From positions 1 through 28,839 of IMG/VR virus record IMGVR_UViG_3300029286_000196: a stretch of 28,839 bases of DNA; one strand, 5' to 3'. Under the pieces are notes generated by a model. It did not search any database. It saw only the letters and a program-made list of their open reading frames with translations, and was not told the DNA's origin. A program made the position numbers and the translations under genes. The DNA comes from a virus. Shown here piece after piece: positions 819-17,297 of the stretch; positions within the stretch are counted from its first letter, which is position 1, and every line of letters starts with the position of its first letter.

Positions 819-1739
819 TCAGGCGTCCAGGTGGACCGACTGCCGCCGGTGAACGTCCACGACAACCCGGTCCTGGCTTTTGTATTTCTCGAACCGCATG
901 TGGGCCTTCCACTTCGATTTCAGGTATCGCTTCTCGGCGGCGATGCGTTCCTCCGACCGGAACAGGGAATTGCCCCCGAGGTTTTTGTCGCGCTCCTGGG
1001 CGAAGCAGAACCGGGCTTCGTTCCAGACAAGGCGGTTGATCATCAACTCGGTCAGTGTGGCGTCGATGTCGCACTTGCACTTGAGGAGATCGTCCCACTT
1101 CACGTCTTTGCCGATCACCCCGACGGCCCCACCCATCCAGTGATGAACGCCGAACGGATCATTGCGCTGGAGCAGTCGGGGATCGCTCCGCTGGTGCCAG
1201 CCGAATAGCCGTGCCCCGGCTCCGAACGCACACCGGGCCGTGTTTTCGACCATGGCGGCGGTTTCATCGATCGAGAGCTTCCGGACCTTCAGGGCGACCA
1301 TGCACATTGCGGCAGAAACGTCATCGTCCATCATGACGAGGCATTCCTCGGGGAAGTGGGCGACAATCCAATTGCGCACCGCGCTCACCCCGCTGATCGC
1401 GTCGGGGATGCCGACTTTCCCAAGAGGGATGTGGGCGTAGCTGGCGATTTCGGATTCCGGTACAACGAGAGTGGCCGCCGGGAACAGCCGGTGCGACGTG
1501 ATCGACCGCTGGCGACTGCGGCTCATGATTACGACGCGGATCGCAATCGGACGGAGTTCGGGAAATTCCACTACGGGAATGGTTGCATGGCCGGGAGTCA
1601 TCTGCCCGTCCGGCTCGGACCCAGGATTCGCGGGGCATGAGCCGCCCGTGACACCACTTTCAGTACCCTGCGATTCAGGTTTAGGAGACGCTGGCCGCTT
1701 TTTGCGCGAGTTCGATGAGTCTTTTTCCATGGAGGACAC
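819..1739 (-). CDS. TET-associated-glycosyltransferase-like (GT-A fold) protein
   Basis: This 306-residue protein has a low-complexity, Ser/Pro/Gly-rich N-terminal tail of about 55 residues. A glycosyltransferase-like core follows: an opening strand (RPIAIRVVIMSRSRQRSITS), then VVPESEIASY, then V-NWIVAHFPEE leading into MMDDDV. The MMDDDV block has the DxD-type metal/sugar-nucleotide signature. This order is typical of TET-associated glycosyltransferases, which in phages sugar-decorate oxidised or hydroxymethylated DNA bases. That function is inferred from family resemblance; no TET/JBP dioxygenase is visible here, though it could lie outside the window. The gene overlaps the upstream ParB-like gene by 59 nt, so the two are probably translationally coupled. 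Two nearby ATGs (codons 1 and 4) could serve as start. Confidence 0.6.
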   Translation of the reverse strand: MSSMEKDSSNSRKKRPASPKPESQGTESGVTGGSCPANPGSEPDGQMTPGHATIPVVEFPELRPIAIRVVIMSRSRQRSITSHRLFPAATLVVPESEIASYAHIPLGKVGIPDAISGVSAVRNWIVAHFPEECLVMMDDDVSAAMCMVALKVRKLSIDETAAMVENTARCAFGAGARLFGWHQRSDPRLLQRNDPFGVHHWMGGAVGVIGKDVKWDDLLKCKCDIDATLTELMINRLVWNEARFCFAQERDKNLGGNSLFRSEERIAAEKRYLKSKWKAHMRFEKYKSQDRVVVDVHRRQSVHLDA

Positions 1740-2340
1740 GGCCGATGCCGATTTTCTTGGTTTTGCGGGTGATTGAATAATCGACTTCCTTCACGCCGAT
1801 GAGCTGGAGCGCGAGCATCCAGTCTCTCAAGTCGTGAAAGATAAAAACCAGGTAGTCGTGATGCTCGAATGCCTGGCATTCCATACGTGGGATCGTTTCG
1901 AGGTCTTCGGCGGGATCGGCCTCGGCGAACAACTTGGCAATTTCGTCCTCCATGAATCCGGTCAGTTCGATGTCGAACGTGGGATCGCTCTCCCGCAGTT
2001 TATCCACGACCCGCTTGAGATCGTCTTCATCGAGTTCGGCCAGTTCCGAAAGCCGGTTGTCGGCGAGTAGGTCGGCCAGTTCCGCCGCCTCCGACTCGTA
2101 ATCCTGGATGTCCACCGGCACGGTTTCACAGCCGATCAGCAGGGCGGCCTCAAGCCGGCCGTGACCCCGAACGATCAGCCCGCTGCGTTTACTCACCGTG
2201 ATCGGCGACCGCCACCCCTGTTCCTGGATGATCGCGGCAAGAAGCTGTATCTGGTGGGCGCTGTGGCGGTTCGGGTTGACCGGGTTCGGTTTGAGTTTCC
2301 GGGGATCAACGAGTTGGTTATGGGCGCAGTGGACGGTCAC
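1681..2340 (-). CDS. ParB/Srx-domain protein (DNA-modification-associated)
   Basis: This is a 219-residue protein with a GTG start. Residues about 10-80 form a ParB/Srx-type domain: a KLKPNP-NPNRHS opening, the helix QIQLLAAIIQEQGWRSPI, and the signature IVRGHGRLEAALLIG followed by VPVDIQDY. An acidic helical region follows (ADLLADNRLSELAELDEDDL). The C-terminal 80 residues are of unknown type. In phages, free-standing ParB-like domains commonly sit beside DNA methyltransferases or base-modification enzymes, as with the glycosyltransferase-like gene that overlaps it here. The GTG is preceded by TTGACAG at a 13-nt spacing, the start motif found at other genes of this phage. It is divergent from the HTH gene at 2403. 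Confidence 0.75.
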   Translation of the reverse strand: MTVHCAHNQLVDPRKLKPNPVNPNRHSAHQIQLLAAIIQEQGWRSPITVSKRSGLIVRGHGRLEAALLIGCETVPVDIQDYESEAAELADLLADNRLSELAELDEDDLKRVVDKLRESDPTFDIELTGFMEDEIAKLFAEADPAEDLETIPRMECQAFEHHDYLVFIFHDLRDWMLALQLIGVKEVDYSITRKTKKIGIGRVLHGKRLIELAQKAASVS

Positions 2341-10249: not shown

Positions 10250-10266
10250 CATGGTATCGGGTTCAA

Positions 10267-10851
10267 TCATTTCATGAACGGCTCCCACTCGCGAAAGAGG
10301 ACCCCGAACTTCCGCCTGATGTCGTCCCCTGGCATATACCTTCGCGGGGCCTGCGGCTTGTGCAGCAGCGAGAGCCCAGCCTCGGAGGGGGTGCGGTCCC
10401 CTTTGCGGTTGTTCACTTCCTTGTCGGCAATAACGAGATTGTCCCATGACGAGGATCCACCCCGGCTCTTCGGGATAACGTGGTCGAGCGACCAGTTCTT
10501 CCGGCGGACTGGCCTGCCGCTGTAGGCGCAGCGGAAGTCCTGCCGGCGGGCGATGGTTTCGTGCGTCAGCGGCTCGGTTTTGATCCTCAGGAATCTGTAA
10601 TTCACTGCGATGATCACGCGGGGGATGCGGATCGGACCTTTGGCCGTCATGGCAGCATCCTCGCCGGGTTCGGTATCAAGCACGATCCACTTCTCCCAGA
10701 GAAGCGGGACCATGGATCCACCCGAGGTGTCGATGCCCGCAGCGGCACCGGAGGCCATCATGCAAAACGCCTTTTGAGGCGTGTAAACATCAATGGCCTG
10801 CCAGTTCGCGTTCAGGGCGAGCACGTTTGGAGATGTGAGTTTGTCTTTCAT
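10267..10851 (-). CDS. HNH endonuclease
   Basis: This 194-residue protein has a clear HNH nuclease core: FRCAYSGRPV, then WSLDHVIPKSRGG with the catalytic His, SSWDNLVIADKEVNNRKG with the central Asn, and the final Asn/His-side residues. The fold resembles bacterial HNH proteins annotated as restriction-like or homing nucleases. A Shine-Dalgarno GAGGAAA lies about 6 nt before the ATG. It is the last gene of the leftward cassette, 46 nt downstream of the last tRNA, and is convergent with the capsid operon. It could be a free-standing mobile nuclease that helps spread the tRNA/repair cassette (inference). Confidence 0.88.
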   Translation of the reverse strand: MKDKLTSPNVLALNANWQAIDVYTPQKAFCMMASGAAAGIDTSGGSMVPLLWEKWIVLDTEPGEDAAMTAKGPIRIPRVIIAVNYRFLRIKTEPLTHETIARRQDFRCAYSGRPVRRKNWSLDHVIPKSRGGSSSWDNLVIADKEVNNRKGDRTPSEAGLSLLHKPQAPRRYMPGDDIRRKFGVLFREWEPFMK

Positions 10852-10897
10852 GGTAAATTTCCTCGTGTGTTCTTCATGCGTTCATCGCGCTCAATAT

Positions 10898-10973
10898 TGG
10901 CACCCACGGCCGGGCTTGCACCGGCTAGGACTCGCTTGAAAGGCGAGGCGCTCGTCTCTTTGCATTCGTGGGC
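10898..10973 (-). tRNA. tRNA-Glu (TTC)
   Basis: Seven-bp acceptor with G1-U72 wobble, G73 and encoded CCA. The anticodon loop is CTTTCAA. The T-loop is TGCAAGC (G55). The D-arm is weak (A8, about three pairs) and lacks G18-G19. It is the last tRNA of the array. Confidence 0.85.
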
Positions 10974-10982
10974 CTGAAACGA

Positions 10983-11055
10983 TCGCTCCGGCAGGAATCG
11001 CACCTGCGACATCCGGCTTATGAAACCGGCGTTCTTCTCTCTGAACTACGGAGCG
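10983..11055 (-). tRNA. tRNA-Met (CAT), elongator type
   Basis: Perfect acceptor including C1-G72, A73, no encoded CCA. The anticodon loop is TTCATAA on a stem with U31-G39. The T-loop is TGCGATT and the D-loop has A18-G19. Full pairing at 1-72 argues against an initiator; a lysidine-modified Ile tRNA is also possible. Confidence 0.85.
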
Positions 11056-11060
11056 AAAAA

Positions 11061-11151
11061 TGGTCCTCCCGCCAGGACTCGCACCCGGACCGCGCCCAAA
11101 TCTAGGGCTAACCGATCATAAGTCGGCCGTGCTACTTTACACAACGGGAGG
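11061..11151 (-). tRNA. Type II tRNA with anticodon TAT (identity uncertain)
   Basis: The acceptor has C1-G72, A73 and encoded CCA, with a 22-nt variable region forming a GCCC/GGGC stem. The anticodon loop CTTATGA on a 5-bp stem gives TAT, nominally Ile for AUA, but bacterial tRNA-Ile has a short variable loop and A37, not G37. The T-loop is TGCGAGT; the short D-loop is AAAGTA. Confidence 0.75.
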
Positions 11152-11156
11152 AGGGG

Positions 11157-11229
11157 AGCCACGCCCGGGGGTTGCACCCGGATCTCCCGCTTACAAGGCG
11201 GGTGCATCTCGTGTTTATGCTTGCGCGGC
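11157..11229 (-). tRNA. tRNA-Thr (TGT)
   Basis: Seven-bp acceptor with G4-U69, U73 and no CCA. The anticodon loop is CTTGTAA. The T-loop is TGCAACC. Position 8 is A, as in the other Thr tRNAs here; the D-loop has C-G where most others have A18-G19. Confidence 0.85.
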
Positions 11230-11235
11230 ATGAAA

Positions 11236-11310
11236 TGGCACCAGCGGATGGATTCGCACCATCACCGTTCCGCTTAACAGGCGGGTGGACTACTGTTATC
11301 CCACGCTGGT
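11236..11310 (-). tRNA. tRNA-Asn (GTT)
   Basis: Perfect acceptor, G73 (expected for Asn), encoded CCA. The anticodon loop CTGTTAA has a C27/A43 mismatch at the stem base. The T-loop is TGCGAAT and the D-loop AACAGTA (A18-G19). Confidence 0.88.
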
Positions 11311-11319
11311 ATCAAAAAT

Positions 11320-11393
11320 TGGTGCCCACACGGGGATTTGCACCCCGGTCTGCCGATTATCGGTCGGCTGCTCTGCTATTGAGCTATGCGGGC
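11320..11393 (-). tRNA. tRNA-Ile (GAT), with C33
   Basis: Acceptor with one wobble, A73, encoded CCA. The anticodon loop CCGATAA has C at position 33 instead of the near-universal U. The T-loop is TGCAAAT and the D-loop AATAGCA (A18-G19). Confidence 0.85.
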
Positions 11394-11396
11394 AAG

Positions 11397-11486
11397 TGGC
11401 GGAAGACGGAGGGCATGCTCCCCAGGCCGTTTCTGGCCCGATCCGCTTTCAAGGCGGTCCCGGCGCGCTTGTCCGGTTCATCTTCC
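11397..11486 (-). tRNA. tRNA-Ser (TGA)
   Basis: Type II tRNA with a GGCC/GGCC variable-arm stem, G73 and encoded CCA. The anticodon loop is CTTGAAA. The T-loop AGCATGC has A54/T58. The D-loop retains A18-G19. Confidence 0.88.
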
Positions 11487-11491
11487 AAAGC

Positions 11492-11566
11492 TGGCTGCCG
11501 CAGATGGATTCGCACCATCATAGCCGGATCCAAAATCCGGAGTCCTGCTTGTTGGACGACACGGCA
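11492..11566 (-). tRNA. tRNA-Gln (TTG)
   Basis: U1-A72 acceptor, as is usual for Gln, G73 and encoded CCA. The anticodon loop is TTTTGGA. The T-loop is TGCGAAT. It has a perfect 4-bp D-stem with loop AACAAGCA (A18-G19). Confidence 0.9.
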
Positions 11567-11574
11567 ATAAAAAG

Positions 11575-11647
11575 TGTCCCCGGCAGGAATTGCACCTGCG
11601 GCCTCAAGGTTCGCAACCTTGCATTCTGTCTGCTGAACTACGGGGAC
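11575..11647 (-). tRNA. tRNA-Arg (GCG)
   Basis: Perfect acceptor, A73, no CCA. The anticodon loop TTGCGAA gives the uncommon GCG anticodon (CGC codon). The T-loop is TGCAATT; the D-loop has A18-G19. Confidence 0.85.
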
Positions 11648-11654
11648 GAAAAAG

Positions 11655-11729
11655 TGGGGCCACCGCCAGGACTTGCACCCGGCTTCCGCCCATACCAGGG
11701 GCGCGCATCGCTTTCTATGCTTCGGCGGC
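11655..11729 (-). tRNA. tRNA-Thr (GGT)
   Basis: Acceptor with G4-U69, C73 and encoded CCA. The anticodon loop is CTGGTAT. The T-loop is TGCAAGT and the D-loop AGAAAGCG (A18-G19). A8 is shared with the other Thr tRNAs. Confidence 0.85.
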
Positions 11730-11733
11730 AAAT

Positions 11734-11804
11734 TGCGGCATGCCGGTGACGCTCCGGCCCATCCACGTTGGCAACGTGGTGTCCTGCTGATAGACGAATG
11801 CCGC
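11734..11804 (-). tRNA. tRNA-Gly (GCC)
   Basis: Perfect acceptor, A73 (bacterial Gly usually has U73), no CCA. The anticodon loop is TTGCCAA. The T-loop AGCGTCA has A54/T58. The D-loop ATCAGCA has A18-G19. Confidence 0.85.
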
Positions 11805-11810
11805 GATAAG

Positions 11811-11884
11811 TGGTCCGGCGGGAAGGTTCTGCCCCCTCGCGAGCTGGGTGTAGGCCAGCCATGCTACTGTTACATCACCGCCGG
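11811..11884 (-). tRNA. tRNA-Val (TAC), with C33
   Basis: Perfect acceptor, A73, encoded CCA. The anticodon loop CCTACAC has C33. The T-loop GGCAGAA has G54/G58. The D-loop AACAGTA has A18-G19. Confidence 0.83.
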
Positions 11885-11894
11885 TTTTTGAAAT

Positions 11895-11969
11895 TGGCCG
11901 CTGGAGTTGGAATTGCGCCAACCTCTCGGGCTCTTCAGACCCGCGCACATCTCTCTATGCCATCCAGCG
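11895..11969 (-). tRNA. tRNA-Phe (GAA)
   Basis: Perfect acceptor, encoded CCA, G73 (Phe is usually A73). The anticodon loop is CTGAAGA. The T-loop CGCAATT has C54/A58. The D-loop has A18-G19. Confidence 0.85.
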
Positions 11970-11974
11970 AAAAT

Positions 11975-12067
11975 TGGTGCGTGCGGGAGGAGTTGCACCT
12001 CCACTGTTTACCCAAAGGGCCTGGTTTTACAGACCAGGGCGACACATCTGGCAGTCGCCTCGCACGC
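11975..12067 (-). tRNA. tRNA-Tyr (GTA)
   Basis: Type II with a CCC-TTT-GGG variable hairpin, A73 and encoded CCA, as expected for bacterial Tyr. The anticodon loop is CTGTAAA. The T-loop is TGCAACT. The long D-loop contains A-G. Confidence 0.9.
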
Positions 12068-12075
12068 ATGAAAAG

Positions 12076-12151
12076 TGGTCGGGCTGGCGGGACTTGCACC
12101 CGCGATCCCCTGCTCCCAAGGCAGGTGCGTTGGCTACTACGCTACAGCCCG
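12076..12151 (-). tRNA. tRNA-Pro (TGG), copy 1
   Basis: Perfect acceptor, A73, encoded CCA. The anticodon loop is CTTGGGA. The T-loop is TGCAAGT and the D-loop AGTAGCCA (A18-G19). Confidence 0.9.
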
Positions 12152-12156
12152 AAATT

Positions 12157-12230
12157 CGTGCCAGGCCACCGGCTGCATCCGATCCCCCTCGGGCCACGAT
12201 TGCAGTCTGGCCCGGGAAGTTGCCGGCACG
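12157..12230 (-). ncRNA. Degenerate tRNA-like element
   Basis: A 7-bp acceptor-like stem (CGTGCCG with TGGCACG, last pair wobble) encloses a central hairpin of 6 bp with an 11-nt loop containing GCA, and a T-arm-like hairpin (ATCGG/CCGGT) whose loop contains TGCA. The D-arm is collapsed, four extra bases follow the T-arm, and no CCA is encoded. It may be a decayed tRNA-Cys or a non-translating tRNA mimic; a complete tRNA-Cys lies at 12858. Confidence 0.45.
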
Positions 12231-12259
12231 AAAATGTAAGAAAGTGAAATGCTGGGGAG

Positions 12260-12351
12260 CGGAAGACGGAGGGCATGCTCCCCAGACGCTCCGAGTGGAG
12301 GTCCGAACCGGTTTCCAGCCGGCCCCGGCGCGCTAGTCCGGTTCATCTTCC
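12260..12351 (-). tRNA. tRNA-Ser (GGA)
   Basis: Type II, with nearly the same acceptor and D-arm as the other Ser tRNAs, G73 and no CCA. The anticodon loop is CTGGAAA. The T-loop AGCATGC has A54/T58. A18-G19 present. Confidence 0.87.
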
Positions 12352-12354
12352 AAA

Positions 12355-12430
12355 TGGTCCCCGCGGCACGATTTGCACGCGCACTGGTCCGGTTCTGAGC
12401 CGGATGCCTCTACTGTTGGGCTACGCGGGG
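12355..12430 (-). tRNA. tRNA-Leu (CAG), short variable loop
   Basis: Perfect acceptor, A73, encoded CCA. The anticodon loop is CTCAGAA. The variable loop has only 5 nt although bacterial Leu tRNAs normally have a long arm. The D-arm (GCC/GGC stem, loop ending AGTAGA) has the Leu pattern. The T-loop is TGCAAAT. Confidence 0.85.
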
Positions 12431-12440
12431 TAATACTTGC

Positions 12441-12513
12441 TCTCCGCAGAAGGAGTTGCACCTTCACGCTCCCCTTAGGACGGGGAGATGCTCGTCTGTT
12501 ACATCATGCGGAG
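12441..12513 (-). tRNA. tRNA-Arg (CCT)
   Basis: Perfect acceptor, A73, no CCA (GCA follows). The anticodon loop is GTCCTAA. The T-loop is TGCAACT. The D-loop has A18-G19. Confidence 0.87.
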
Positions 12514-12519
12514 AAAAAT

Positions 12520-12594
12520 TGGAGCCACGCCAGGGACTTGCGCCCTGCTCTGCCGATTACGAATCGGCTGCATCGCTGTCTATGCTTGCACGGC
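12520..12594 (-). tRNA. tRNA-Thr (CGT)
   Basis: Acceptor with two wobbles, U73, encoded CCA. The anticodon loop is TTCGTAA. The T-loop CGCAAGT has C54/A58. A8 is shared with the other Thr tRNAs; A18-G19 present. Confidence 0.86.
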
Positions 12595-12603
12595 GAAAGG
12601 TGA

Positions 12604-12676
12604 TCCCCACGGCGGGATTCGCACCCGCACTTGTCCGATTTTAAGTCGGATGCCTCTTCTGTTGGGCTACATGGGG
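12604..12676 (-). tRNA. tRNA-Leu (TAA), short variable loop
   Basis: Acceptor with U6-G67, A73, no CCA. The anticodon loop is CTTAAAA. The variable loop has 5 nt, and the D-arm is nearly identical to that of the Leu (CAG) tRNA. The T-loop is TGCGAAT. Confidence 0.86.
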
Positions 12677-12683
12677 AAAGACG

Positions 12684-12772
12684 CGGAAGGTGGAGGACAT
12701 GCTCCCCAGGCCGGTTTCCCGGCCCGATCTCATTAGCAATGAGTCCCGGCCCGCTCGTCCGGTTCGCCTTCC
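12684..12772 (-). tRNA. tRNA-Ser (GCT)
   Basis: Type II, G73, no CCA, one mismatch at 7-66. The anticodon loop is TTGCTAA. The T-loop AGCATGT has A54/T58. It shares the Ser-type D-arm. Confidence 0.85.
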
Positions 12773-12777
12773 AGATT

Positions 12778-12852
12778 TGGTCTCCACGCAAGGATTTGCA
12801 CCCTGACGACGAGGTTCGAAGCCTCGCATGCTGTCTGTTACATCACGCGGAG
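12778..12852 (-). tRNA. tRNA-Arg (TCG)
   Basis: Acceptor with one wobble, A73, encoded CCA. The anticodon loop is CTTCGAA. The T-loop is TGCAAAT (G55). Confidence 0.87.
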
Positions 12853-12857
12853 AGAAA

Positions 12858-12934
12858 TGGAGCGCCGCCCCGGACTCGCACCGGGTAAGGACTGGTTTGC
12901 AAGCAGTCGCCTCGACGGCTTCGGCATGCGGCGC
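12858..12934 (-). tRNA. tRNA-Cys (GCA)
   Basis: Perfect acceptor, U73 as expected for Cys, encoded CCA. The anticodon loop is TTGCAAA with a C31/C39 mismatch. The T-loop is TGCGAGT. The D-arm is GCC/GGC with A-G in its loop. Confidence 0.86.
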
Positions 12935-12945
12935 ATAAAAATCGG

Positions 12946-13020
12946 AACCCCCGGCCGGAATTGCACCGGCATCGATCCCGTTTAGAAGACGGGTGCCTGA
13001 TCTGTTCGAGCCACGGGGGC
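12946..13020 (-). tRNA. tRNA-Arg (TCT)
   Basis: Acceptor with G1-U72, U73, followed by CCG rather than CCA. The anticodon loop is CTTCTAA. The T-loop is TGCAATT. Confidence 0.83.
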
Positions 13021-13026
13021 GGAAAC

Positions 13027-13104
13027 TGGTGCGCCAACCGGGAGTTGCACCCGGACGACCGCTTTGGAAGAGCGGCATGCTGGACTGTTGAACATCACTG
13101 GCGC
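13027..13104 (-). tRNA. tRNA-Gly (TCC)
   Basis: Acceptor with G7-U66, A73 as in the other Gly tRNA here, encoded CCA. The anticodon loop is CTTCCAA. The T-loop is TGCAACT. Confidence 0.86.
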
Positions 13105-13114
13105 GCTTTTGAAA

Positions 13115-13189
13115 TGGTCGGGCACCCCGGTAACGCTCCGGGTATATCCTGCTCCCAAGGCAGGCGGATTACTTTCTTCCTCGTGCCCG
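13115..13189 (-). tRNA. tRNA-Pro (TGG), copy 2
   Basis: Perfect acceptor, A73, encoded CCA. The anticodon arm is identical to copy 1 (CTTGGGA), but the T-loop is AGCGTTA (A54/T58) and the D-arm differs (G8, loop GAAAGTA with A18-G19). Confidence 0.86.
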
Positions 13190-13199
13190 AGGAAACTTG

Positions 13200-13273
13200 C
13201 GCTCGCGGCCGGACTCGCACCGACTTGCTCGTCTGTGAGAGAGACGCGACTCGACTGCTTCGTCTTCGCGGGC
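13200..13273 (-). tRNA. tRNA-Glu (CTC)
   Basis: Acceptor with a C3/A70 mismatch, G73, no CCA. The anticodon loop is CTCTCAC. The T-loop is TGCGAGT. A8 as in the Glu (TTC) tRNA. Confidence 0.82.
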
Positions 13274-13281
13274 TTGATAAA

Positions 13282-13357
13282 TGGCGGACGCGACGGGTGC
13301 TGCCCCCGCTCGCTCCTGCTCGACAGGCAGGCAAACATGCTGTTGTTACTCGCGTCC
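13282..13357 (-). tRNA. tRNA-Asp (GTC)
   Basis: Perfect acceptor, G73 as expected, encoded CCA. The anticodon loop is CTGTCGA. The T-loop GGCAGCA has G54/G58. The D-loop contains CAGC. Confidence 0.87.
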
Positions 13358-13362
13358 GAAAC

Positions 13363-13452
13363 TGGCGGAAGACGGAGGGCATGCTCCCCAGGCCGTTGCC
13401 GGCCCGATCTGTTTTCGAAACAGTCCCGGCGCGCTTGTCCGGTTCATCTTCC
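13363..13452 (-). tRNA. tRNA-Ser (CGA)
   Basis: Type II, G73, encoded CCA. The body is almost identical to Ser (TGA). The anticodon loop is TTCGAAA. The T-loop AGCATGC has A54/T58. Confidence 0.88.
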
Positions 13453-13456
13453 AAAA

Positions 13457-13530
13457 TGGCTGCCCCAGATGGATTCGCACCATCATCGGCGGATTCAGAG
13501 TCCGCTGTCCTACTGTTGGACGACAGGGCA
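13457..13530 (-). tRNA. tRNA-Gln (CTG)
   Basis: U1-A72 acceptor with two wobbles, G73, encoded CCA. The anticodon loop is CTCTGAA. The T-loop TGCGAAT is the same as in Gln (TTG). Confidence 0.89.
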
Positions 13531-13531
13531 G

Positions 13532-13609
13532 TGGTGAACCCGGAGGTAGTTGCAACCTCACCAATGTCCGATTAAAAGTCGGGTGCCGGTCTGCTGTGGC
13601 ATCGGGTTC
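13532..13609 (-). tRNA. tRNA-Lys (TTT)
   Basis: Perfect acceptor, A73, encoded CCA. The anticodon loop is CTTTTAA with C27/A43 mismatch. The variable loop is 7 nt. The T-loop is TGCAACT; the D-loop contains CAGCAGA. Confidence 0.86.
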
Positions 13610-13616
13610 GTAAGAG

Positions 13617-13694
13617 TGGTCCCTGCGGCAGGATTTGCACCCGCACTGTCCACGTTCTCGACGTGGTGCCTCTACTTGATTGGGCTACACAGGG
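13617..13694 (-). tRNA. tRNA-Leu (GAG), short variable loop and C33
   Basis: Acceptor with one wobble, A73, encoded CCA. The anticodon loop TCGAGAA has C33. The variable loop has 5 nt, and the Leu-type D-arm resembles the other two Leu tRNAs. The T-loop is TGCAAAT. Confidence 0.84.
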
Positions 13695-13699
13695 GAAAA

Positions 13700-13772
13700 T
13701 GGTTCCGGAGCGTGGAATCGAACCACGCAAGGCATGCTTATGAGACACGCCGGGACACCTGTCCTCTCCGGG
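13700..13772 (-). tRNA. tRNA-Met (CAT), initiator-like, canonical elbow
   Basis: C1/A72 mismatch (the bacterial initiator hallmark), A73 and encoded CCA. The anticodon loop is CTCATAA. The T-loop TTCGATT is canonical and the short D-loop contains G-G. The three G-C pairs typical of initiator anticodon stems are not intact. Confidence 0.85.
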
Positions 13773-13781
13773 GTTATGAAA

Positions 13782-13856
13782 TGGTGGACCGCCACGGCTA
13801 TGCTCCGTGCACTGCCGGGTGCAAACCGGCTGATTTACTGACTAATCTAGCGGCCC
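13782..13856 (-). tRNA. tRNA-Ala (TGC)
   Basis: Acceptor with one wobble, A73, encoded CCA. The anticodon loop is TTTGCAC. The T-loop AGCATAG has A54/T58. The D-loop AGTCAGTA has A18-G19. Confidence 0.87.
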
Positions 13857-13867
13857 GTTGAATGAGA

Positions 13868-13943
13868 TGGGGAGACCGACGGGGTTCGCACCCGCTCCGG
13901 CAGGTTCACAGCCTGCAATGCTAACTGATACACTACGGCCTCC
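13868..13943 (-). tRNA. tRNA-His (GTG)
   Basis: Has the His hallmarks: C73 opposite an extra G at -1, and encoded CCA. The anticodon loop is CTGTGAA. The T-loop is TGCGAAC. The D-loop ATCAGTTA has A18-G19. Confidence 0.9.
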
Positions 13944-13956
13944 ATCTTGGGTAAAA

Positions 13957-14030
13957 TGGCACGGAGTCCCGGTGCTGCCCCGGGCAAGCTGGGTTTTGGA
14001 GACCCGGCTGCACAAGCTGGTGCCCTCCGC
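13957..14030 (-). tRNA. tRNA-Trp (CCA)
   Basis: Acceptor with G1-U72 and a G7/A66 mismatch, G73 (expected for Trp), encoded CCA. The anticodon loop is CTCCAAA. The T-loop GGCAGCA has G54/G58. Reduced D-arm with CAGC. Confidence 0.83.
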
Positions 14031-14041
14031 ATTGTTGAAAT

Positions 14042-14114
14042 TGGTCGCGGGACGTGGGATCGAACCACGGGAGCCAGGCTTATGAGACCCGGCAGGATGC
14101 CAATCCTTCCCGCA
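14042..14114 (-). tRNA. tRNA-Met (CAT), initiator-like, canonical elbow
   Basis: Weak U1-G72 end pair, A73, encoded CCA. The anticodon loop CTCATAA lies on a stem with three consecutive G on one side. The T-loop TTCGATC is canonical and the D-loop contains G-G. It is the first tRNA of the array in transcription order. Confidence 0.85.
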
Positions 14115-14118
14115 ATGA

Positions 14119-14158
14119 AAAATGGGCGTGCCGCAGGAACAAGTTGACCTGCGGCACG
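14119..14158 (-). terminator. 11-bp hairpin with CCCA-TTTTT tail at array start
   Basis: A perfect 11-bp stem (arms at 14127-14137 and 14148-14158) has a 10-nt loop. On the minus strand it is followed by C-CCA and then five T. This fits a rho-independent terminator, but it also looks like a tRNA acceptor minihelix ending N-CCA. Its first seven bases (CGTGCCG) equal those of the degenerate tRNA-like element at 12157. Confidence 0.5.
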
Positions 14159-14166
14159 AATTGAGC

Positions 14167-14246
14167 GCGTTTGGAACGGGCTAATAGGCCCGCACCGTGC
14201 CGGGAGGATGCCGTCCTAAGACAGTATCCTCCCGGCGAACGCATAA
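14167..14246 (-). ncRNA. Structured element: closing stem plus two hairpins
   Basis: GCGTT/AACGC closes a three-way junction with a 5-bp hairpin (CGGGC/GCCCG, 6-nt loop) and a perfect 10-bp hairpin (GCCGGGAGGA/TCCTCCCGGC) with further pairing inside. The topology is tRNA-like but there is no recognisable anticodon or T-loop. The strand is assumed from the surrounding leftward cassette. Confidence 0.4.
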
Positions 14247-14260
14247 AGAACACACACCAT

Positions 14261-14378
14261 CGCAACCCAATAAGGGACTGCACCCGCTGGATTTCACGGC
14301 GGACGTTTGGGGCGCTTCCGGCGCGCCTTGGAGCCTCTCGGAGAGCGAGAGGCGGGCTTGACAGGGTGTCAGGTTGCG
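14261..14378 (-). ncRNA. Structured, tRNA-like element
   Basis: A perfect 7-bp closing stem (CGCAACC with GGTTGCG) encloses five hairpins. Read on the minus strand they are TGACA/TGTCA with a 3-nt loop, a 7-bp stem GCCTCTC/GAGAGGC with a 7-nt loop, GGCGC/GCGCC, CCGC/GCGG, and GGG/CCC with a TGCA-containing loop. The layout recalls an enlarged tRNA but has no readable anticodon and no CCA. Function unknown. Confidence 0.4.
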
Positions 14379-14422
14379 GTAAGTTCACCGCGGCACTAGG
14401 ACCCTGCAAGGTCCGCCTCGGG

Positions 14423-14456
14423 CCGGAATCAGCTCTAACTGGTTCCGGTCCTTTTT
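14423..14456 (+). terminator. Rightward terminator-like hairpin
   Basis: CCGGAA/TTCCGG plus inner pairs is followed on the plus strand by TCCTTTTT. It would stop rightward transcription entering the tRNA region; no rightward gene directly precedes it. Confidence 0.5.
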
Positions 14457-14499
14457 CGTTCTATGTCTTGTTTAGGAAAAATTTGGTTCGGTAATAGGA

Positions 14500-14533
14500 A
14501 ATAAAAAAACCCGGACTCGTTTGAGGCCGGGTT
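14500..14533 (-). terminator. Rho-independent terminator after RtcB gene
   Basis: On the minus strand AACCCGG/CCGGGTT with a 12-nt loop is followed by a run of T (A7 at 14503-14509 on the plus strand). It ends the repair-operon transcript and so separates it from the tRNA array. Confidence 0.8.
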
Positions 14534-14622
14534 CGTCGAATGTTTATGTGAAAACTTCTACGAGGTCCTGGCCTCCGTCGTAAGTGTGGCTTCGATCATA
14601 CCGAGTGAAAACCACGCGGATG

Positions 14623-14679
14623 CGAGAGCACGACTCCGACGGCAGTCGGTATTCGTTATCGGTTGATGATATGCTCTCG
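14623..14679 (-). ncRNA. Structured element in 3' region of RtcB transcript
   Basis: An 8-bp closing stem (CGAGAGCA/TGCTCTCG) directly abuts a 5-bp hairpin (CGACT/AGTCG, 8-nt loop), with a weakly paired remainder. It lies between the RtcB stop and the terminator. Function and strand are uncertain. Confidence 0.35.
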
Positions 14680-14771
14680 TTTTCATTGAAGATACGAGAA
14701 ACATTAGACATAGAAAATATAGAGTCAAGCGAAAATGTTAGGATAATTAGCAGGCTATTCTCAGCGCATGT

Positions 14772-16157
14772 TTAGTCCTCGGGACGCTCCCCGCTCGGGC
14801 ACATTTTGACCAGTCTGGGGTCGAAGCGGGCCAGCACCTTGACCAGATCAGTTTGGGCCGACATCACGGTTTCGATGTCCTTGTAGGCAAACGGAACTTC
14901 GTCGAGTCCGGCAGAGATCAACGTGACGCCGCGCTCTCGCAGAAATGCGTTTGCATCGTGCCAGGAAAGCGTTTCGTTTGCACGGGTGCGACTCATCGCA
15001 CGACCCGCGCCGTGCGAAGCCGAGTTGAGCGAGTCCGCGTTGCCTTTTCCGCTGACGAGGAAGCCGGGAGTTGCCATCGAGCCTGGAATGATTCCGAGCA
15101 CGCCATCCCCCGCCGGGGTTGCCCCTTTGCGGTGGACGATGACTTCTTTTCCGAAATGGACTTCCTTCCACGCGAAGTTGTGATGGTTTTCAACATCCAA
15201 GAGGACCTCGACTCCGAGGTTTTCGGTGATGTGTTTGTGGATGAGGGCATGGTTGGCCGCCGCATACCGGCCCATCAGGTTCATGGACGCCCAGTATTCC
15301 TGACCGTCCGCGCTGTCGAGGGAGAGCCACGCGAGGCGCGACAATTCCTTCGGCAGTTCTCTATGCTGGGCCGTGGCGATCTTGCTGTAGTGGTCGCAAA
15401 CAGCCGCCCCGGTTCCACGGCTTCCGCTGTGAGAGAGGAGCGCCACGTATTCGCCGGGTTCAAGTCCACACGTTTTGTCGGTCACCGTCAGGAGACCGAA
15501 TTCCACGAAGTGGTTTCCGCTCCCGCTCGTTCCGAGTTGCGCCCATGCGCGTTCCTTGTTTTTTGCCGTCATGGGACTCACCGACCAGTCCTCGTCGAGG
15601 ACAGCGTGTGCCCTGCGGTCCTTAAAAGTGGAGCCGACACCAAACTTGGCCTCCTTTTCGATGGCTTCAGCCAGCCGGTCTTTTCGGTCACTGAGCCAGC
15701 CCGTCGGCAGGTCGAGGACGCTCATCTTCATGCGACACGCGATATCCACGCCCACGGCATACGGGATGACGGCGTTTTCCGTGGCCAGCACGCCCCCGAT
15801 CGGCAGCCCGTATCCGACGTGTGCATCAGGCATCAGGGCAGCAGCGACAGAAATCGGCAGCAGGCTTGCCGCTTCGATCTGCTTGAGTGCCATGTCATCG
15901 ATATCAGATCCCCACTGCTTCCACGGGGCCGGCGGTTTTCCGGGCATGTAGAGGTCCGGAGCTTGTAGTGCGGTCGCAAGGGGACCGCGAAGCGGATCCT
16001 CAGCGAAGGTGCTGGGTGCGGCAACGATCGCGGAAATTTCCGCTCCGAGGCTCTCCTTATCTCCACCTCCCGTGCAGAAGGCAGAAATAAAAATGAAGGC
16101 CTCGTCCATCGGTTTCCCGAGGGGAACGCCAAGTTTGAGGATGTCTTTGGTTTTCAT
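14772..16157 (-). CDS. rtcB: RtcB-type RNA ligase
   Basis: This 461-residue protein has the full RtcB signature. The metal-binding Cys141 lies in AVGVDIACRM, His216 in SGSGNHFVEFG and His243 in LSHSGSRGTG. HHNFAWKE (His325/His326) follows, and the guanylylated His382 lies in SHGAGRAMSR. RtcB joins 3'-phosphate or 2',3'-cyclic phosphate ends to 5'-OH ends using GTP and Mn2+, and so reseals tRNAs cut by anticodon nucleases. The N-terminus is about 60-80 residues longer than in short bacterial RtcB. It overlaps the upstream RlaP-like gene by 4 nt. No archease gene is visible. Placement beside 37 tRNA genes suggests that phage tRNA is the substrate (inference). Confidence 0.93.
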   Translation of the reverse strand: MKTKDILKLGVPLGKPMDEAFIFISAFCTGGGDKESLGAEISAIVAAPSTFAEDPLRGPLATALQAPDLYMPGKPPAPWKQWGSDIDDMALKQIEAASLLPISVAAALMPDAHVGYGLPIGGVLATENAVIPYAVGVDIACRMKMSVLDLPTGWLSDRKDRLAEAIEKEAKFGVGSTFKDRRAHAVLDEDWSVSPMTAKNKERAWAQLGTSGSGNHFVEFGLLTVTDKTCGLEPGEYVALLSHSGSRGTGAAVCDHYSKIATAQHRELPKELSRLAWLSLDSADGQEYWASMNLMGRYAAANHALIHKHITENLGVEVLLDVENHHNFAWKEVHFGKEVIVHRKGATPAGDGVLGIIPGSMATPGFLVSGKGNADSLNSASHGAGRAMSRTRANETLSWHDANAFLRERGVTLISAGLDEVPFAYKDIETVMSAQTDLVKVLARFDPRLVKMCPSGERPED

Positions 16158-16915
16158 GCGGCTTTGAGAAGGATGTTTCGGAAGAATGCGTCGAGATCGG
16201 CGAACGGCGGAGGATCGGTTTTCTCAGGCGCGATGTCAGCCAGTCTGGCGAGTTCGGATTCGACAAACTCGCTGATTACCGGCACGCGTGGTGCGCGGTC
16301 CAATTCCTCCCCGTTTCGTTTGCGCACGACGAGGTCGGCGATGGCGAAGCGCAGCATCACGTCGTCAATCGTCTTGTCCACGAGTTTGGAGAACTCCATC
16401 GGCACTGGACCGAGCCCGCGCTCGATCCACCGGCAGGCGCAGATAGGCCGGAGCACGTAGAGATACTTTTTCAGCCAGACAACCTCCCCGCGCAGGTAAT
16501 CTCGGAAATTTCCCTCGGCCATGTGCAGGTAGTGAAGAAAGCATTTCGCCGGACTGTAGTAATGTTCTGCCAGGGCACGGAAGCCAGTGGAGAATTCCAC
16601 GTCCTCCCGATACACGATGGCCGATCTTAGCCATTCGAGCAGGGGAGGGTTGGACTTCCGCAGGAGGCCGAGCGCCTTGCGCAGATCCCAGCCGCTGATG
16701 TCGAGATCGCCGCTGATCGGCTCCTCGATCACATCGCGCTTCTGCTCGACGGAAAGATACCACTCCGGAGCACGCAGGTAGATAAACCGCACGTCGTAGT
16801 CGCTGTCGGTCGACGCGAACCCCCAAGCTCGGCTGCCGGATTCGACGGCATAAAGCACCTGCACGCCGTATTCGCTCTCGATGCGGCTCAGTTCGGATTG
16901 GATTATGGTTTTCAT
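16154..16915 (-). CDS. RlaP-like predicted nucleotidyltransferase
   Basis: This 253-residue protein belongs to the polymerase-beta-type nucleotidyltransferases of the YcgL/COG3541 kind. Residues 27-41 contain GSRAWGFASTDSDYD, with Asp39 and Asp41 as metal ligands, followed by VRFIYL. Downstream are DLDISGWDLRKALGLLRKSN and a C-terminal helical region. Such proteins occur beside RNA ligases and have been named RNA-ligase-associated proteins (RlaP). They are thought to add nucleotides to damaged RNA ends before ligation, but the chemistry is not shown here. The 4-nt ATGA overlap with rtcB indicates coordinated translation. A terminator-like hairpin stands 22 nt upstream of the start, suggesting attenuation. 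Confidence 0.8.
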   Translation of the reverse strand: MKTIIQSELSRIESEYGVQVLYAVESGSRAWGFASTDSDYDVRFIYLRAPEWYLSVEQKRDVIEEPISGDLDISGWDLRKALGLLRKSNPPLLEWLRSAIVYREDVEFSTGFRALAEHYYSPAKCFLHYLHMAEGNFRDYLRGEVVWLKKYLYVLRPICACRWIERGLGPVPMEFSKLVDKTIDDVMLRFAIADLVVRKRNGEELDRAPRVPVISEFVESELARLADIAPEKTDPPPFADLDAFFRNILLKAA

Positions 16916-16937
16916 ATCGGTGGTTTTGGTGGAAACG

Positions 16938-16971
16938 AAAAAACCCTGCTCGTCTTTCGGCGAGCAGGGTT
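16938..16971 (-). terminator. Terminator/attenuator upstream of RlaP-like gene
   Basis: A perfect 11-bp stem (AACCCTGCTCG/CGAGCAGGGTT, 8-nt loop) is followed on the minus strand by six T and then, 22 nt from the last T, the RlaP start codon. Since the promoter candidate lies upstream of it, it would act as an attenuator. Confidence 0.75.
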
Positions 16972-17142
16972 GGAAAATCGAAAAAAGGTTCTGGATTCTA
17001 CCTGCTCGCTCGCGGGTTTGCTGGAGTATTGATGCCGCCGAATTGCCGGACTTCCGCGACGCAATAAGCCCCCAACATGGATGTCTTTATCCATGATGAA
17101 ACGGGACTGCGATGGAGCGATAGCGTCATTGAACTTACCCTT

Positions 17143-17171
17143 GTGCTATTGCCGCGCGGTTCCGTTGTCAA
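17143..17171 (-). promoter_or_regulatory. Leftward sigma70-type promoter candidate for repair operon
   Basis: On the minus strand a perfect TTGACA (17166-17171) is followed after exactly 17 nt by TAGCAC (17143-17148). The leader would be about 220 nt, passing through the attenuator hairpin. Confidence 0.45.
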
Positions 17172-17297
17172 GCCGGGTCTCTGTGTGTGACTGCCGGGTG
17201 ATGAGGATTACACCTAATTGTCGAATACTAGTTTCCACTTTGCCTACGGCATGAGGCAGACCATGCCTCGTTCATTTATCAGTCATAGAAGTATCCG

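Follow-up and report, generated by a model that had tools for sequence, protein, structure and literature searches.

An A18-G55 elbow pair in place of G18-U55 in a near-complete phage tRNA set

The elbow contact between positions 18 and 55 folds almost all cellular tRNAs into an L shape. Here we describe a phage tRNA array in which this contact appears to be made by a different pair of bases, found in IMG/VR virus record IMGVR_UViG_3300029286_000196 (positions 1 to 28,839; this whole 28,839-nucleotide stretch is referred to as the window). Using a stem-based parser together with manual reading, we identified 37 minus-strand tRNAs between positions 10898 and 14114, with anticodons that cover all 20 amino acids (Table 1). 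G55-C56 is present in 35 of the 37, and none of these 35 contains G18-G19. Approximately 32 of the 35 carry A18-G19, tRNA-Cys carries C18-G19, and position 18 is unassignable in tRNA-Thr(TGT) and tRNA-Lys. An earlier note, made from the letters of this DNA, had reported this pattern, and the parser, manual reading and the Rfam model agree on it. Our data indicate that the A18-G55 set is a real and general tRNA-elbow variant, and apparently an undescribed one.

Since the seven-base T-loop is flanked by five-base stems, position 55 is unambiguous. The Rfam tRNA covariance model, with scores of up to 65.8 bits in the array, aligns A-G with consensus G18-G19 and places G, not U, at consensus position U55, which was the alignment check proposed in the earlier note. 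ARAGORN detects 21 of the 37 tRNAs. The commonest T-loop among the G55 tRNAs is TGCRANY; AGCRTNN is found in all four tRNA-Ser, tRNA-Ala, tRNA-Gly(GCC) and one tRNA-Pro, GGCAGNA in tRNA-Val, tRNA-Asp and tRNA-Trp, and CGCAANT in tRNA-Phe and tRNA-Thr(CGT). U55 is confined to two CAT tRNAs (13700-13772 and 14042-14114), one of which shows the C1xA72 mismatch that characterizes bacterial initiators. Both carry G-G in a four-base D-loop, and thus the association of G18 with U55 and of A18 with G55 (the 18-55 rule) is obeyed there too.

We found that the same association holds well beyond the window. IMG/VR was scanned for two G55-type T-arms 62-92 bases apart, which gave at least 119 stretches, GTDB genomes were scanned likewise, and control scans covered A55, C55 and U55 arrays. 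Since some T-arm-pair stretches are expected by chance, counts were restricted to tRNAs found by the parser, which uses stems and the fixed bases T8, A14, A21 and T33 and is blind to positions 18, 19 and 54-60. The parser recovered 601 tRNAs in a first set (the IMG/VR G55 stretches listed) and none from reversed sequences. The full comparative set holds 1651 distinct tRNAs from environmental phages and contigs of metagenome-assembled genomes (MAGs). Among its unambiguous cases, G18 outnumbers A18 by 1097:8 when position 55 is a pyrimidine, and A18 outnumbers G18 by 339:2 when it is G. Restricted to C56, the counts are 956 G18 and 6 A18 for U55, 112 G18 and 1 A18 for C55, and 329 A18 and 1 G18 for G55. 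The association has a Fisher p of about 1e-320, a value that is only indicative since related sequences are not independent. Rarer variants of position 56 are mostly compensated (U56 with A19, A56 with U19, G56 with C19), with G18 or A18 mostly tracking base 55, and positions 54 and 58 combine as U-A, A-U or G-G. The 50 stretches returned by the A55 scan contained no A55 tRNA. The earlier note had proposed a paired exchange of G18-U55 for A18-G55 with G19-C56 kept; as judged from these sequences, it is well supported that this exchange obeys a general folding rule. Moreover, since elbow bases vary in phages almost only as compensated combinations, there is good evidence that docking of the D- and T-loops is conserved and that these tRNAs would be used in an L shape.

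The rule has more than the two solutions given in the earlier note. Suppressor tRNAs selected in the Steinberg laboratory (the 'purine trap') reportedly use A18/G55 as an alternative to G18/U55, although these come from laboratory selection and are not natural sets. In nature, U55 does go with G18 and G55 with A18, but C55 with G18 exists as a third solution. As a separate class, C55 tRNAs (T-loop TCCRANY; L367-L466 and other loci) keep G18-G19 and are about as common as G55 tRNAs in ordinary arrays. A sample of ordinary U55 arrays (approximately 545 tRNAs) contained 7 G55 tRNAs with A18 and 5 C55 tRNAs with G18; against 7 in approximately 545, the 35 of 37 in the window are not due to chance.

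The window tRNAs have the features expected of working elongator tRNAs, apart from G18 with U55, which the 35 G55 tRNAs lack. They form cloverleafs with intact stems and a seven-base T-loop, many of their 3' ends encode CCA, and the G19-C56 pair is kept. Because G19-C56 is retained through the exchange, the D- and T-loops should still dock, and it is nearly certain on this comparative basis that A18-G55 replaces G18-U55 with the L shape preserved. The synthetase identity rules of bacteria are established knowledge, and the array contains G-1:C73 in tRNA-His, G3:U70 in tRNA-Ala, U73 in tRNA-Cys, C1xA72 in the initiator-like tRNA and G73 in the Asp, Glu, Asn, Gln, Trp and Ser tRNAs. The tRNA-Phe also has G73, which departs from the Escherichia coli rule. 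Several further features were observed in the array. The tRNA with the Ile anticodon TAT (11064-11151) has a long variable arm, unusual for Ile, and the three tRNA-Leu (12358-12430, 12604-12676 and 13617-13694) have short variable arms, as is common in phage tRNA-Leu of every elbow type. A Ser and Gln pair is duplicated with 87% identity (11394-11566, TGA/TTG; 13360-13530, CGA/CTG), and a degenerate minus-strand sequence at 12160-12240, which resembles a tRNA but lacks CCA, is possibly a decayed 38th tRNA. Rfam matches to plastid-ycf2 and Twister-sister in the window were below threshold.

Arrays of G55 tRNAs are also present in many other viral contigs from the environment and in MAG contigs of Verrucomicrobiota and Planctomycetota, which answers the search for G55 with A18 in other phage genomes that the earlier note had suggested. 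On genome contigs, 23 loci contain two or more G55 tRNAs; 14 of these belong to Verrucomicrobiota and three to Planctomycetota. In four array-holding Verrucomicrobiota MAGs, the 30 best chromosomal tRNAs are all U55/G18, which speaks against G55 as a host trait, and G55 matches are confined to one or two contigs per MAG. Together, these data point to mobile or viral DNA as the most likely carrier of the trait. Among named cultured phages reached by similarity search, all parsed tRNAs of CcrColossus, CcrRogue, DSS3_MAL1, GMA2 and Moby are canonical at position 55, and no tRNAs were parsed in REQ2. The G55 share of individual arrays shows a bimodal distribution, with clusters at 0.1-0.4 and 0.9-1.0; because arrays were sampled by their G55 pairs, the lower cluster is not representative. 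When compared without the two loops, 108 of 120 sampled G55 tRNAs have their nearest relative outside their own locus, usually with the same anticodon and in about half of cases with U55 or C55. Conversion thus occurred many times, isoacceptor by isoacceptor, and the comparison rejects expansion of an array from one founder tRNA.

Initiator-type tRNAs are often spared. In G55-dominant arrays, U55 is kept in approximately 9 of 15 CAT tRNAs with a 1-72 mismatch and in approximately 8 of 200 other tRNAs (counted by eye). Two accounts are possible: initiators require G18-U55 for reasons of their own, or the agent of selection is limited to elongators. CAT tRNAs with a miniature D-arm (a loop of about four bases), which may be initiator, Ile2 or other tRNAs, are a recurrent form, mostly xAGx with G55 and xGGx with U55; they occur at both CAT positions of the window given above and at L037, L211, L218, L285, L045, L313, L008, L247 and L280.

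We considered two explanations in which no agent is evaded, both serious rivals to evasion and each, in our judgment, unlikely. Phage tRNAs may have fewer host partners, such that compensated elbow changes drift in under relaxed constraint; the single G55 or C55 tRNAs scattered in ordinary arrays, the many kinds of compensated change and the mixed arrays are in line with this. However, whole arrays that are 90-100% G55 and the separate conversion of isoacceptors suggest a directional force, and drift does not account for the spared initiators. Alternatively, and with no better prospects, tRNAs with G55 or C55 may be favored since they need no pseudouridine-55 and no TruB and would fold adequately at once, which could be useful for rapid production in a hijacked cell. 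Chemically, neither natural replacement can be pseudouridylated, TruB requires GUUYRANYC (PMC7912444), and TruB was found in none of the 28 phage records searched, which also rejects a phage-borne TruB. Against independence from modification, ordinary phage arrays are overwhelmingly U55, and TruB explains neither the exchanges at 19-56 and 54-58 nor the sparing of initiator-type tRNAs.

The array lies within a mobile cassette of approximately 7 kb that is flanked by the major capsid and head-closure genes (Table 1). In blastn comparisons with L122, L123, L129, L130 and L131, the alignment ends at approximately 10249 and restarts at 17295-17296, and these relatives without the cassette are 77-92% identical on both flanks. 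The same site holds other cargo in relatives, namely a ParE-type toxin (L130, 18175-18468) and a weakly PIN-like protein (L122, 16995-17504). In whole-record searches, RtcB was found in 4 of 19 records with G55 and in 2 of 16 control records, and RlaP was not enriched, which rules out both as general partners of G55 arrays; they fit a tRNA-damage theme in this phage. Among viral contigs, enrichment of HNH genes with G55 arrays did not reach significance. Positions 14115-14770, which separate RtcB from the array, are non-coding with strong hairpins (GCCGGGAGGAT...ATCCTCCCGGC), and elsewhere in the window (1681-2340) a ParB-like domain protein matches type II methyltransferase models over their N-terminal part. 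The cassette content also bears on a self versus non-self reading, in which the phage would disable the tRNAs of the host by way of their canonical elbow and depend on the tRNAs that it encodes. A near-complete tRNA set would suit such a strategy, and for other phages, host tRNAs are reported to be depleted in infected cells (Yang et al. 2021, as cited in PMC11555353). We consider it improbable, more so than drift or freedom from TruB, as the only nuclease candidate of the cassette is a DNA-type HNH protein and the cassette is dispensable in relatives.

Table 1. Features of the tRNA cassette in the window. Coordinates, anticodons and elbow bases of tRNAs are from the stem parser and manual reading, partly with the Rfam model.
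Feature	Coordinates	Strand	Evidence
Mobile cassette: HNH gene, tRNA array, RtcB, RlaP	10250..17294		blastn
HNH endonuclease	10267..10851	-	Pfam HNH_4 5e-10; PHROG HNH 1e-19
tRNA-Glu(TTC), A18 G55	10901..10973	-	
tRNA-Met(CAT), A18 G55	10983..11055	-	
tRNA(TAT), 22-base variable arm, A18 G55	11064..11151	-	
tRNA-Thr(TGT), G55, position 18 unassignable	11157..11229	-	
tRNA-Asn(GTT), A18 G55	11239..11310	-	
tRNA-Ile(GAT), A18 G55, C33	11320..11393	-	
tRNA-Ser(TGA), A18, T-loop AGCATGC	11397..11486	-	
tRNA-Gln(TTG), A18 G55	11495..11566	-	
tRNA-Arg(GCG), A18 G55	11575..11647	-	
tRNA-Thr(GGT), A18 G55	11658..11729	-	
tRNA-Gly(GCC), A18, T-loop AGCGTCA	11734..11804	-	
tRNA-Val(TAC), A18, T-loop GGCAGAA	11811..11884	-	
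tRNA-Phe(GAA), A18, T-loop CGCAATT	11898..11969	-	
tRNA-Tyr(GTA), A18 G55, long variable arm	11978..12067	-	
tRNA-Pro(TGG), A18 G55	12079..12151	-	
tRNA-Ser(GGA), A18, T-loop AGCATGC	12256..12351	-	
tRNA-Leu(CAG), A18 G55	12358..12430	-	
tRNA-Arg(CCT), A18 G55	12441..12513	-	
tRNA-Thr(CGT), A18, T-loop CGCAAGT	12523..12594	-	
tRNA-Leu(TAA), A18 G55	12604..12676	-	
tRNA-Ser(GCT), A18, T-loop AGCATGT	12681..12772	-	
tRNA-Arg(TCG), A18 G55	12781..12852	-	
tRNA-Cys(GCA), G55, C18 (breaks 18-55 rule)	12861..12934	-	
tRNA-Arg(TCT), A18 G55	12946..13020	-	
tRNA-Gly(TCC), A18 G55	13030..13104	-	
tRNA-Pro(TGG) second copy, A18, T-loop AGCGTTA	13118..13189	-	
tRNA-Glu(CTC), A18 G55	13200..13273	-	
tRNA-Asp(GTC), A18, T-loop GGCAGCA	13285..13357	-	
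tRNA-Ser(CGA), A18, T-loop AGCATGC	13363..13452	-	
tRNA-Gln(CTG), A18 G55	13460..13530	-	
tRNA-Lys(TTT), G55, position 18 uncertain	13532..13610	-	
tRNA-Leu(GAG), A18 G55	13617..13694	-	
tRNA(CAT), C1xA72 mismatch (initiator-like), U55 G18, 4-base D-loop	13700..13772	-	
tRNA-Ala(TGC), G3-U70, A18, T-loop AGCATAG	13785..13856	-	
tRNA-His(GTG), G-1 and C73, A18 G55	13871..13942	-	
tRNA-Trp(CCA), A18, T-loop GGCAGCA	13957..14030	-	
tRNA(CAT), T1-G72, U55 G18, 4-base D-loop	14042..14114	-	
RtcB RNA ligase	14772..16157	-	Pfam PF01139 1.8e-87
RlaP, RNA-repair nucleotidyltransferase	16154..16915	-	Pfam PF10127 8.9e-93

The reading we favor is that of a translation-competent phage tRNA set, close to complete, that is carried on a mobile cassette and may evade a host factor; taken as a whole, we regard the case for it as evenly balanced. 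Its evasion part, in which the elbow change escapes a host factor that reads the normal elbow, is the likeliest reason for the exchange but more tentative, falling slightly short of an even chance. Such a factor, in the simplest case a defence or toxin that damages tRNAs, would read the common elbow sequence or pseudouridine-55 of elongators, and the phage would supply a tRNA set that this factor cannot read, while RtcB and RlaP would mend other tRNA breaks. Selection for the exchange would then consist of the removal of U55 or pseudouridine-55 and of the usual elbow sequence. The complete set with intact stems and identity elements, the strict 18-55 rule with compensated 19-56 and 54-58 positions, and the existence of two routes to the loss of U55 (G55/A18 and C55/G18) argue for this reading. 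So do the cluster of arrays at 0.9-1.0 G55, the separate isoacceptor conversions, the sparing of initiator-type CAT tRNAs, the absence of the cassette from relatives and the toxin-like cargo at the same site. Precedents exist, as CdiA-CT E479 is a tRNase that cleaves the T-loop between T and pseudouridine (PMC9086364) and phage tRNAs can evade tRNA-targeting defences (PMC10264068, PMC11555353). Three points weigh on the other side: mixed arrays, not the outcome expected from a global elbow nuclease, are common; G55 arrays do not generally come with RtcB and RlaP; and we know of no elbow-specific phage defence in these hosts, for which no direct search was made. A broader form of the idea, which we advance as a long shot, is that an unrecognised class of bacterial defence, or a phage-phage conflict, destroys or disables elongators via the canonical elbow, perhaps on EF-Tu, and that many phages, above all those that infect Verrucomicrobiota and Planctomycetota, respond with a complete set of tRNAs with orthogonal elbows. 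Since initiators do not bind EF-Tu, they would need no elbow change under such a defence.

Compared with the canonical bacterial elbow (G18-pseudouridine-55, G19-C56, U54-A58), the window set shares the cloverleaf, C56-G19, the seven-base T-loop with a 54-58 pair and the identity elements. It differs in A18-G55, in that pseudouridine-55, described as universally conserved (PMC4810234), is impossible, and in that A54-U58 and G54-G58 are commoner. The anti-defence tRNAs of mycobacteriophage C1 and the T5 tRNATyr (PMC10264068, PMC11555353) are phage-encoded answers to tRNA-cutting defences, as the window set may be, but they rely on anticodon-loop changes or one highly expressed tRNA, whereas in the window the elbow of nearly all elongators is changed. 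The one anticodon-loop change noted in the array is C33 in tRNA-Ile(GAT). G55 itself was known from the staphylococcal cell-wall tRNAGly, which is used inefficiently by the translation machinery (PMC4810233). Our scan recovered it in Staphylococcus petrasii (L284) with G55 in a TGCAANT T-loop, and it thus serves as a positive control. This shared G55 raises a non-translational role for the window set, which we judge very improbable: the staphylococcal type is glycine only and has an uncompensated D-loop with CT or TT and no purine-G, whereas the window set covers all 20 amino acids with compensated A18-G19 in approximately 32 of 35 tRNAs and intact identity elements. The earlier note's view that a natural A18-G55 set is new holds insofar as our literature search, with subscription journals mostly outside its reach, found no earlier report; the trait is not unique to this phage.

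These data indicate that A18-G55 is a second natural solution to the elbow and G18-C55 a third, with compensation even at 19-56, and they amount to an experiment by nature on which elbow features are indispensable. Such tRNAs are predicted to be missed by tRNA finders, as with ARAGORN here, and they offer orthogonal tRNA bodies for engineering. Furthermore, the question of why phages carry whole tRNA sets becomes directly testable.

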